From an uncultured Aquimarina sp. (GTDB lineage: Bacteria; Bacteroidota; Bacteroidia; Flavobacteriales; Flavobacteriaceae), in contig CANLOW010000005.1 in the NCBI GenBank assembly GCA_947493035.1, positions 1-64,000 on the forward strand: 64,000 nt of DNA, written 5' to 3'. Positions 60,768-64,000 of this stretch are shown piece by piece (positions within the stretch are counted from its first letter, which is position 1; the number at the start of each line of letters is the position of its first letter). A program made the position numbers and the translations under genes. The notes under the pieces were generated by a model. It was given only the letters and a program-made list of their open reading frames with translations. It was not told the origin of the DNA and did no database searches.

Positions 60768-61256
60768 ATGATACGAATCAAAAAAAAGGCTTTTACCCCC
60801 TTATTACTTCTCTTATTAGGAGTAAATCAAATTTCTTTGGGTCAAAATTACAATGATATAACCCTAGAGCAATCATCAAAAATTATCAATATAGCTTTAG
60901 AAAAAGCCAAACAGTTAAATGTATTGGTAAATATCGCTATCGTAGACAAAGGCGCCAACTTAAAAGCATTTAAACGAATGGATGGGTCTTACCTAGGTAG
61001 TATTGATGTTGCCATAAAAAAAGCTAAAACAGCACGTTATTTTAATACTTCTACTCGTGATCTAGGAAAATTAACACAACCAGGAGGTGTCATTTATAAT
61101 ATAGAACATTCAAATAGAGGACTCATTACCTTTCCTGGAGGTGTCCCTTTAAAGGATAAAAATGGAGACATCATTGGAGCTATTGGCATAAGTGGAGGTA
61201 CTATTGATGAAGATGAAAATATAGCCTATTTCGCTGCTAAATTCCTATTGAAATAA
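60768..61256 (+). CDS. Exported GlcG/HbpS-family protein
   Basis: A 162-residue protein with a signal peptide (LLLLLLGVNQISLGQ) and a GlcG/HbpS (DUF336) domain: ALEKAKQLNVLVNIAIVDKGANLKAFKRMDG, SIDVAIKKAKTA, FPGGVPLKDKNGDIIGAIGISGGTIDEDE. In Streptomyces HbpS binds haem outside the cell and relays redox state. The present protein would be periplasmic; haem binding here is not shown. Confidence 0.87.
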   Translation: MIRIKKKAFTPLLLLLLGVNQISLGQNYNDITLEQSSKIINIALEKAKQLNVLVNIAIVDKGANLKAFKRMDGSYLGSIDVAIKKAKTARYFNTSTRDLGKLTQPGGVIYNIEHSNRGLITFPGGVPLKDKNGDIIGAIGISGGTIDEDENIAYFAAKFLLK

Positions 61257-61297
61257 ACTAGTTCGAGGTTAACTCACTAAACATTCTCAAAAAACAA

Positions 61298-61332
61298 AAT
61301 TTCAAGTCACACCTTAGGATATTACACCTTTT
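61298..61332. repeat. Dispersed intergenic repeat, copy 2
   Basis: 27 of 35 positions match 56946-56980; the small palindrome of copy 1 is not preserved. Confidence 0.45.
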
Positions 61333-61379
61333 GTTACAGCAATAAATTAAGACTACCATCATAATATTACTCTAAAACA

Positions 61380-62918
61380 ATGAATTACACAAGCACCATT
61401 ATAAGCGGAATAGTTACCTTAATAACAACATACTCAACCCTAGCGCAATCTTTACAAAACTCAAATCATCATACTTCACTAGAAGTAGGAATGGAAACGA
61501 CCTCTCATAACACGGTTACTTCTACCACATATAGTATTGGAGATGAAAATTTCGCATACTCAGGTGGAGATGGTGGAATCATAGAGGCTTTTGAAATCAG
61601 TCCAAAAGGAGCACTTTCTAAAATAGCATCTTACCGTTTAAACAACGAAAATGGGCCTTCTAGAGGTCTAATTGCAGATCGTATTGAAGGTAATGATTTC
61701 TTATTTGTTGGTAATAAAGGAGACAATTCTGTTGAAGTTTTTAAAATAGCTACGACAGGTAAATTAGATCGTGTTTTTATCCTTAAAGATACACCTGAAA
61801 CTTACCTAGGTACTGTCATTACACTAGAAGTAATTCATATGAAAAATACTTCCTATCTCTTTGTCGGAGGATTGGAGAGCACTCCTGGTTTAAGCTCTTT
61901 TAAAATTTCTAAAGACGGCTCACTATCTCATGTCACATCACTACAAGATGATGATACTATTCACACCGATGGAATTATAGGTATGTACACTCATGTAATT
62001 AATGGAAAAACATTTCTTTTTACAGGTGGATTCCATGATAATGGAATCAGCAGCTTTAGGGTTTACGATGATGGTACATTCAAAAATGTAAGCAATATTT
62101 CTGACAATACTACCGATCGATATTTAACGGGAACTTATCCTGTAAATGGAGTTACATTAAATGGCAATCACTATGTCATTGTAGGACATAGACACCACAA
62201 GTACTATAAAAGAATAGAGTTTATTAAGAAAAAAGACTTTATCTACCATGGAGATGGCGTTAGCATATTTAAGATCTCTAAAAAAGGAGAAATTCAACCT
62301 CATTCCGTTTATGTAAATAATGAAAAGACACTATTAGCAGGACAAACTAAAATTGATGTCCTAAAAATTGATGAGCAAAAAGCTTATGTAGCAGTAGCTA
62401 CGAAAGACGATCATAGCATTCAACTATTAGAGTTAAATACCTCTGGTATTTTAGAACCCTTAACTACATTACCTGTTAAGTATCCAATATACTATGGAAT
62501 GTCATCCATAAAAATTAAGGACAACTATTTCTTTTTAGCGGGTTCTGTTGACCAAAGCTTAAAGCAATTTTTCTCTTATCAAATACTTAAAAATCCGGAA
62601 GCAACAACGAAATCATCTAGTGTTTTAAGACACTTAGTGTGCCTTACTTACAAAGACGAAGCTCCAAAAAAAGAAGTAGAAAATGCTGTCAATAGTTTCA
62701 TTGATTTAAAAAATAAAATTACTGTTATTGATAATTTCGAATGGGGAACTAATACCAGTAAAGAAGGTCACGATAAAGGTTTTACCCACTGTTTTACCCT
62801 GACATTTAAAACTCAAGAAGATTTAGAAACCTATTTACACCACAAAGACCACCTTGAACTTCTTAAAATTGTAAAACCCATAATTAAAGACGCATTTGTT
62901 TTTGATTATTGGAATTAA
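61380..62918 (+). CDS. Exported beta-propeller protein fused to a Dabb domain
   Basis: A 512-residue protein. A signal peptide (about 1-23, ending STLAQ) precedes a lactonase-like propeller (about 45-405) with repeated units such as ISPKGALSKIASYRL, IATTGKLDRVFIL, ISKDGSLSHVTSL and ISKKGEIQPHSVYV. The last 95 residues are a stress-response dimeric alpha-beta barrel (Dabb: RHLVCLTYKDEAPKKEVENA ... FEWGTNTS ... FTLTFKTQEDLETYLHH ... FVFDYW). The pairing of these two folds is unusual. Context suggests a redox or haem-linked role; the chemistry is unknown. Confidence 0.8.
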   Translation: MNYTSTIISGIVTLITTYSTLAQSLQNSNHHTSLEVGMETTSHNTVTSTTYSIGDENFAYSGGDGGIIEAFEISPKGALSKIASYRLNNENGPSRGLIADRIEGNDFLFVGNKGDNSVEVFKIATTGKLDRVFILKDTPETYLGTVITLEVIHMKNTSYLFVGGLESTPGLSSFKISKDGSLSHVTSLQDDDTIHTDGIIGMYTHVINGKTFLFTGGFHDNGISSFRVYDDGTFKNVSNISDNTTDRYLTGTYPVNGVTLNGNHYVIVGHRHHKYYKRIEFIKKKDFIYHGDGVSIFKISKKGEIQPHSVYVNNEKTLLAGQTKIDVLKIDEQKAYVAVATKDDHSIQLLELNTSGILEPLTTLPVKYPIYYGMSSIKIKDNYFFLAGSVDQSLKQFFSYQILKNPEATTKSSSVLRHLVCLTYKDEAPKKEVENAVNSFIDLKNKITVIDNFEWGTNTSKEGHDKGFTHCFTLTFKTQEDLETYLHHKDHLELLKIVKPIIKDAFVFDYWN

Positions 62919-63055
62919 ATTCTCTCAAAATCAAATTTACGCAACCTGTTAACTTCAAATATGACAATAACAGTAACACTTTAAGCATAATAAAAAACAC
63001 TTGTTATTTAAATTATTATTGAATTAAAACTGTGCCATATTCTACATAAACCAAT

Positions 63056-63063
63056 TATATTTG
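63056..63063 (+). promoter_or_regulatory. thrS -7 element
   Basis: TATATTTG matches TAnnTTTG exactly; no TTG lies at 17-20 bp, only TGTG at 63031. Transcription would start near 63070, just before the leader hairpin. Confidence 0.5.
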
Positions 63064-63077
63064 TTGGTAATCAAGAA

Positions 63078-63106
63078 TTGCCTTCGAACTTGTAATCGCA
63101 AGGCAA
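63078..63106 (+). ncRNA. thrS leader hairpin mimicking the tRNA-Thr(UGU) anticodon arm
   Basis: TTGCCTT (63078-63084) pairs with AAGGCAA (63100-63106); then C85-G98 and G86-C97 pair, and A88-T96 closes a 7-nt loop CTTGTAA (63089-63095), with A87 and C99 bulged. The loop is CU-UGU-AA: U33, anticodon UGU for threonine, A37, A38. ACTTGTAATC is identical to the anticodon region of E. coli tRNA-Thr(UGU). In E. coli ThrRS binds a similar mimic in its own mRNA and blocks translation; the same is inferred here. The hairpin ends 18 nt before the ATG. Confidence 0.7.
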
Positions 63107-63124
63107 AAATTTTCTAAGCAGAAT

Positions 63125-64000
63125 ATGATAAATATTACATTACCAGACGGTTCGGTAAAACAATTTGAAAGCGGAGCTACAGCAATGGACGTAGCTAAAA
63201 GTATCAGTGAAGGATTAGCAAGAAACGTGATTTCAGCAAAATTTGATGATCGTATTGTTGAAACAAGCACCCCATTAACCCAAGATGGTAGTTTAACATT
63301 ATTTACTTGGAATGACAAAGAGGGAAAAGAAGCTTTCCGTCACTCTTCAGCCCACGTCTTAGCACAAGCTTTAGAGCAATTATACCCAGGTATAAAACTA
63401 AGTATTGGGCCTGCTATAGAAAATGGTTTCTATTACGATGTAGATCTAGGAGAACAAACAATATCAGACAAAGACTTCAAGAAAATTGAGGATAAAATGT
63501 TAGAAATTGCTCGTGGCAAACATGAGTTTAGACTAAAAGCTATTTCTAAAGCTGATGCTTTAGCAAAATATACAGAACAAGGAAACGAATATAAAGTTGA
63601 GTTAATTGAAAATCTTGAAGACGGTACTATTACTTTCTGTCATCACGATGATTTTTCTGATTTATGTCGCGGGGGACACTTACCTCATACTGGATATATA
63701 AAAGCGGTAAAATTAATGAATATTGCTGGTGCTTATTGGCGCGGTGATGAAAACAACAAGCAGCTAACTCGTATTTACGGAACATCATTTCCTAAACAGA
63801 AAGAGTTAAAACAATATCTAGAACTATTAGAAGAAGCTAAACGCCGAGATCACAGAAAACTTGGTAAAGAACTAGGTTTATTCACCTTTTCTCAACGTGT
63901 TGGTCAAGGATTACCTCTTTGGCTTCCTAAAGGAGCTGCCTTACGTGATCGTTTAGAGCAATTTTTAAAGAAAGCACAAAAAAAGGCTGGATATGAAATG
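63125..64000 (+). CDS. thrS: Threonyl-tRNA synthetase (5' part, runs off the window)
   Basis: The first 292 codons of ThrRS are present. In order: the TGS domain (about 1-62, ITLPDGSVKQFESGATAMDVAKSI), the N2 editing domain with FRHSSAHVLAQAL (H73 and H77) and FSDLCRGGHLPHTG (Cys and His of the editing site), then the start of the catalytic domain (ELGLFTFSQRVGQGLPLWLPKGA). The start is the ATG at 63125, right after the anticodon-like leader hairpin. The class II motifs lie beyond the window. Confidence 0.96.
   Translation, partial: MINITLPDGSVKQFESGATAMDVAKSISEGLARNVISAKFDDRIVETSTPLTQDGSLTLFTWNDKEGKEAFRHSSAHVLAQALEQLYPGIKLSIGPAIENGFYYDVDLGEQTISDKDFKKIEDKMLEIARGKHEFRLKAISKADALAKYTEQGNEYKVELIENLEDGTITFCHHDDFSDLCRGGHLPHTGYIKAVKLMNIAGAYWRGDENNKQLTRIYGTSFPKQKELKQYLELLEEAKRRDHRKLGKELGLFTFSQRVGQGLPLWLPKGAALRDRLEQFLKKAQKKAGYEM

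Follow-up and report, generated by a model that had tools for sequence, protein, structure and literature searches.

The thrS leader at the end of the window

The window, that is the whole 64,000-nt stretch analysed here, belongs to a 3.34 Mb genome of the genus Aquimarina (referred to as G000) and ends within thrS, the gene for threonyl-tRNA synthetase (ThrRS). The leader of this gene holds a hairpin with an anticodon-like loop, and the features around it are as follows:

63056..63063, + strand: TATATTTG, the likely -7 promoter element, identical in 4 of 4 clade members
63078..63087, + strand: 5′ arm of the hairpin, UUGCCUUCGA, with covariation for the core at 63080-63104
63088..63095, + strand: 8-nt loop, ACUUGUAA, with UUGUA invariant in the clade
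63096..63106, + strand: 3′ arm of the hairpin, UCG, bulged C63099 and AAGGCAA, with the place of the bulge kept in the clade
63107..63124, + strand: A/U-rich spacer of 18 nt between the hairpin and the thrS start codon
63125..64000, + strand: thrS, which continues past the end of the window and has 651 codons on the contig

In tRNA numbering, the loop ACUUGUAA consists of an extra A followed by positions 32–38 (CUUGUAA), with the anticodon UGU at 63091-63093. An earlier note on this DNA had described a hairpin at 63078-63106, 18 nt ahead of the thrS ATG (63125), with TATATTTG at 63056-63063 and with U33, UGU (G35 and U36 included) and then A in the loop, and all of these were present as described. 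Two of its details had to be revised. The loop, described as 7 nt long, has 8 nt, since a 7-nt loop would need an A63088-U63096 pair that breaks the CGA/UCG helix; in its nested form, UUGCCUU-CGA-ACUUGUAA-UCG-c-AAGGCAA, the hairpin has 10 bp and one bulged C. Moreover, ACTTGTAATC, said to be identical to tRNA-Thr(UGU), matches this genome's own tRNA at 9 of 10 positions, with C versus T at position 32. The arm of tRNA-Thr(UGU) in G000 reads GCTGA-TTTGTAA-TCAGC, as found when 30 of the 37 tRNA places were examined.

Judging from the promoter element, which lies 14 nt ahead of the hairpin in the window, transcription would start about 5–8 nt downstream of TATATTTG. A generic sigma-70 scan gave no excess over chance (2 found vs 1.6 expected), and no Shine-Dalgarno sequence was seen by eye in the spacer; Bacteroidota rarely use Shine-Dalgarno pairing. 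When the 125-nt window leader was folded alone, it was not above chance (z −1.33, with 20 of 200 shuffles equally good). No Rfam family, T-box included, reached its gathering score at the hairpin, and none of the five weak matches in 61000–64000 at E up to 5 lay there. In 14 loci with the element there was likewise no Rfam match at the element; the sole match was a SAM riboswitch elsewhere, an aptamer (RF00162, L386:3763-3873, 69.2 bits) at the end of its locus with the 3′ end missing. We also noted an imperfect inverted repeat in the window, GCCATATTCTAC (63034-63045) and GCAGAATATGA (63119-63129), of which the first copy lies upstream of the promoter element and the second covers the thrS start codon; it was not evident in relatives.

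Conservation of the hairpin in the window clade

The hairpin was found in 4 of 60 thrS leaders of the genus, namely in G000 and in L161–L163, which are the same genomes as L031–L033 (one uncultured Aquimarina isolate and two Aquimarina MAGs), and these four bearers form one clade in the ThrRS tree with a support of 100. In the other 56 leaders, the last TAnnTTT[GA] is located 5–22 nt before the start codon (median 20), which leaves no room for a hairpin. The earlier note had named absence of the hairpin from orthologous leaders as refuting; most Flavobacteriaceae leaders do indeed lack it, but this is due to the short leader, as in these 56 of 60, and not to a random loop. The hairpin-less leaders (L002–L030 and L164–L190) mostly share a long promoter stretch, ATTGTATG...TTTATTATCGTATTATCTTTG, which extends beyond the -7 element. 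As for the alignment of leaders that the note had proposed as a check, hairpin-bearing close orthologues show covariation in the stem and a conserved NGU loop.

The four species are well separated, with pairwise differences of 44–58% at the fourfold-degenerate sites of thrS, and only 39 of 203 such sites are identical in all four. The silent sites are thus near saturation, yet UUGUA in the loop is invariant, while the three remaining loop bases vary. The 25-nt core (63080-63104) aligns free of gaps across the four and all 32 of its 32 pair cells are standard pairs; 3 of the 8 core pairs have changed on both sides and 5 never vary. The paired fraction of this four-leader core was reached by 2 of 500 shuffles, and so it is by comparison of four species, not by folding alone, that the hairpin exceeds chance. 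The bulge on the 3′ side is at the same place in all four (C, A, A and A), TATATTTG lies 13–16 nt from the core, and the core ends 20, 17, 20 and 18 nt from the ATG.

The next gene upstream of thrS is a 512-aa frame in G000 and a 757-aa frame in L031; L032 has no frame of at least 80 aa within the last 1 kb upstream of thrS, in L033 it is a 741-aa frame, and the corresponding frame of G000 lies three genes further off. As these neighbours differ, the element travels with thrS. Searched with the model R1, 7 genomes gave scores of 36.8–41.6 bits at the four thrS leaders, and no other site in them exceeded 24.6 bits. A run with stricter filters over 397 genomes sampled from the Flavobacteriaceae added no thrS leader. 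Its matches in 11 other genomes of the 397 (24.7–30.1 bits) had no thrS within 1.5 kb and were taken as chance; an open frame of 558 aa encloses the best of these matches and also the relative of that match.

Anticodon-like hairpins in other Bacteroidota families

We surveyed thrS leaders from across the phylum for loops of 7 or 8 nt of the form U33-N34-G35-U36-A37, closed by 6 bp or more, adding 30 nt of coding sequence to each leader. Among 384 unique leaders, the core GUA (positions 35–37) was found in 70, compared with a mean of 1.08 and a maximum of 6 for the other 63 cores; the families f22, f17 and f19 and a second Flavobacteriaceae genus, g151, were sampled more deeply after a first match there, and 70 of 384 is accordingly no prevalence. 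The count of 384 is obtained with identical leaders removed over all groups, and removal within groups leaves 403 rows; both give 70. The four window-clade hairpins are outside the 70 because the bulge cuts their contiguous stem. An initial sample of the phylum comprised 109 leaders; for 8-nt loops of the form [AG]NUN-XXX-N and at least 4 closing pairs, GUA occurred seven times in it, the most of all 64 cores (core mean 0.78). At 6 bp, once the four window-clade leaders were set aside, GUA occurred 35 times in 380 unique leaders, against a mean of 0.13 and no more than 2 for the other 63 cores.

With duplicates removed within groups, the hairpin was present in 39 of 48 leaders of f17, 16 of 53 of f22, 9 of 30 of g151 and 3 of 31 of f19. 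A sample of mixed same-class and other-class genomes (sh_class) had it in 3 of 40, two f17 genomes and one f22 genome. None of the leaders from the genus (59), the named loci (80), a further set (22), the same order (20) and other classes (20) had it at 6 bp. Outside their leaders, the surveyed loci contained 41 such hairpins in 2.15 Mb, from which 0.54 leaders would be expected, versus 46 of 285 seen. An early dinucleotide control was disturbed by promoter sequence in Flavobacteriaceae. In one f22 assembly (G672, with L332 and L401), two full thrS matches of 77% and 62% identity were found, the first of which may come from a contaminating contig.

When one loop position at a time was varied, position 33 was U in 70 leaders (other letters in 5), position 35 was G in 70 (others in 7), position 36 was U in 70 (others in 2) and position 37 was A in 70 (others in 4). 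All four letters are found at positions 32 and 38, and position 34 is U in 64, C in 8 and A in 7. With U33, G35 and U36 fixed and the wobble base free, the pattern is that of the threonine anticodon arm. The four leaders without A37 all have U and none has G, the letter at this place in the E. coli operator loop. The loop of the window, ACUUGUAA, was met six times in g151 on another stem. Other Bacteroidota families show loops of the U33-N34-G35-U36-A37 form on stems that are unrelated.

Covariation was examined in an alignment of 37 hairpins from outside the window clade (A3), from which L049 and L053, whose hairpin overlaps the promoter, and L340, with a weak stem, were left out. In A3, 90.0% of the cells are paired, vs 52.0% in shuffles and 31–42% when slid, and 7 of 7 pairs have two-sided changes, with a covariation score of 1.064 against 0.276 in shuffles. 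The rows were picked for at least 4 closing pairs, which makes the inner four pairs partly circular; the three outer pairs are free of this choice and are paired in 34, 33 and 18 of the 37 rows. The stem is located 5–48 nt from the start codon (median 25). The nearest upstream TTTG lies a median of 13 nt before the stem, and at most 25 nt in 42 of 48, and because of this short distance the hairpin is probably near the 5′ end of the mRNA. Nine leaders were folded, with mostly ordinary energies (z −0.15 to −2.72); in the lowest-energy folds of L386, L031 and L032 the 8-nt loop was not fully open.

On the ThrRS tree (243 rows), the presence of the hairpin is patchy and needs at least 12 changes. 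Its labels were set with a 5 bp cut-off and with two spurious Aquimarina hits excluded, and 38 of the 80 named loci were included. Gain and loss look alike in this count. The different stems suggest, short of proof, that the element originated repeatedly.

The family f17 mostly has two hairpins, and here the compact single hairpin of the earlier note does not apply, although that form holds in the window clade and single hairpins were seen in g151 and f22. The model R2 gave 15 matches over the thrS start codon in f17, of the form AAUCAU-AGUUGUAG-AUGAUU, in which the AUGAUU arm is the Met-Ile start of thrS; of the window's relatives, it reached L161 and L162 and missed L163, and it also missed L001. 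A mimic with a 7- or 8-nt loop and the start codon in its 3′ arm is present in 39 of 48 f17 leaders, and 30 of these 39 also have an upstream mimic, 43–55 nt away from loop to loop. The 5′ arm of the start-codon mimic is non-coding and conserved, and in the two leaders with a GUG start (L415 and L423) the stem is kept through a G-U pair. Many of the upstream hairpins have a 7-nt loop, such as UUCGUAU on GAUCAC/GUGAUC in L246. The lowest-energy fold contained the start-codon hairpin in L386, L372 and L387, and lacked it in L241. The two stems are often near-copies of each other (AAUCAC/GUGAUU vs AAUCAU/AUGAUU, as for example in L378, L388 and L389), as if duplicated. In four related f17 leaders (L370, L371, L421 and L422), a 4-bp hairpin, UUAC-GUUUGUAG-GUAA, whose loop begins 25–27 nt ahead of the start codon, is found in place of the start-codon hairpin.

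ThrRS as the probable reader of the loop, and known systems

The window ThrRS aligned nearly end to end with a solved ThrRS, with the N-terminal, catalytic and anticodon-binding parts present. Of five residues that contact the anticodon in E. coli ThrRS, four are kept, and the fifth, R589, is replaced by K. The fixed loop letters are the threonine identity bases. From these sequence comparisons taken together, we consider it highly probable (about 85%) that thrS is controlled at translation through the hairpin as an operator: ThrRS would bind the anticodon mimics and repress its own synthesis in the manner known from E. coli, though on simpler and tighter elements.

In such a mechanism, the anticodon-binding domain of free ThrRS would dock on the hairpin, whose loop presents U33-N34-G35-U36-A37 just as tRNA-Thr does, and ribosomes would then be barred from the start codon close by. 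Uncharged tRNA-Thr, if abundant, would compete for ThrRS and so allow translation of thrS. The one-hairpin form would operate in the window clade, in part of the genus g151 and in part of the family f22; in G000, with 18 nt between stem and start codon, a bound dimer would presumably be near enough to obstruct the ribosome. In f17, the ThrRS dimer could hold both hairpins together, and the start codon, which lies in the second one, would be sequestered by binding in a weak A-U-rich stem; without the enzyme, ribosomes could open this stem. The conserved structure, the covariation, the fixed loop positions and the place in thrS leaders were computed, and from these we infer ThrRS binding, repression and competition by tRNA. 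The reading of the earlier note, a tRNA-Thr anticodon mimic in a thrS leader, is supported.

Other explanations were weighed. The hairpin may be an intrinsic terminator or transcription attenuator that acts on messages from the upstream gene or on that of thrS. L031 has a T run soon after the stem, whereas in G000, L032 and L033 the run is short or several bases off, and a scan of 62900-63200 for a G+C-rich stem with an immediate T run found none. Furthermore, a terminator loop need not be fixed as UUGUA is, and the element stays with thrS while the upstream genes differ; we regard termination as very unlikely. A palindromic DNA operator for a transcription factor would agree with an inverted repeat adjoining the promoter, but here the arms are wholly different between groups and still complementary while the asymmetric middle is conserved, the reverse of the usual protein-binding palindrome, and one of the f17 repeats contains the start codon. 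This reading deserves hardly any credence, and the same is true of chance, or of a mere stabilising hairpin at the 5′ end with no specific function of the loop. The single window leader does fold no better than many shuffles and 56 of the 60 genus members do without a hairpin; it is contradicted by the covariation, by the rarity of such hairpins outside leaders and, apart from single weak members, by the statistics of the loop.

It is also conceivable, though improbable, that another RNA-binding partner (a small RNA, a modification enzyme or a different protein) reads the loop instead of ThrRS. In favour of this, A37 is near-fixed, whereas E. coli ThrRS does not require it in its operator, where the predicted domain-2 loop has G37. 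On the other hand, the fixed letters are the threonine identity bases, the wobble position varies freely and the leader belongs to thrS. A related and very doubtful idea is that the near-fixed A37 lets the enzymes of threonylcarbamoyl-A37, which use threonine, see the loop as well, and that the leader would serve as a threonine sensor; the free position 38 counts against it. Recognition by ThrRS accounts for the data, because the identity bases are in the loop, the gene is thrS and there is a precedent in E. coli. In a wider form, to which we give even odds, Bacteroidota would have recurrent, repeatedly evolved ThrRS operators made from 20–30-nt mimics, and in f17 the dimer would clamp two of them, hiding the start codon directly.

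If true, mimics on unrelated stems in several families, with the threonine identity bases fixed, would represent a readily evolving solution and a clear case of translational control for a phylum that rarely uses Shine-Dalgarno pairing. Regulation is predicted to be lost when G35 or U36 is changed.

T-box leaders are also leader RNAs of synthetase genes and sense tRNA by pairing with it; here, the leader would instead imitate the tRNA. In yeast, ThrRS binds an element of the RPC10 mRNA that resembles the tRNA-Thr anticodon arm, and the available part of PMC9956033 reports it as favouring translation. The likeness to an anticodon arm in a mRNA that ThrRS binds is shared with the proposed Bacteroidota operators (where binding is presumed); the differences are that yeast is a eukaryote and that the element lies inside the message of another gene. 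Closer by family, Flavobacterium psychrophilum has aminoacyl-tRNA synthetases, the genes unspecified, among its mRNAs with structured 5′ UTRs, and the part of PMC9723704 at hand does not mention anticodon mimicry; these leaders are possibly an earlier glimpse of the element. In the open full-text literature, outside which most subscription papers lie, no title or abstract start among the matches listed described such mimics in Bacteroidota, and PMC2864571, PMC8040213 and PMC7247131 had no term match for threonyl or tRNA synthetase.

Bacterial control of a synthetase by anticodon mimicry has, to our knowledge, mainly one worked-out case, E. coli thrS. There, exchanging the loop for a different anticodon is reported to hand control over to the matching synthetase. 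According to the available parts of PMC11088916 and PMC3858243, the translational operator of E. coli thrS has domains I–IV, and ThrRS attaches to two anticodon-like hairpins in its mRNA leader and prevents 30S binding. As in the leaders described here, a hairpin with an anticodon-like loop (U33, NGU) lies near the thrS start codon, and f17 shares the two mimics as well. Domain 2, which we predicted as GUGAUCU-[UUCGUGU]-GGGUCAC, has a loop close to the UUCGUAU of the f17 leader L246. There is no common sequence between the E. coli operator and the Bacteroidota stems, and homology is not indicated. In contrast to E. coli, f17 has the start codon within its second mimic, and the window clade has one hairpin, A37, no Shine-Dalgarno sequence and a short leader. 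The principle is thus known from E. coli, and the form in the window, with one hairpin and an 8-nt loop, differs from it.
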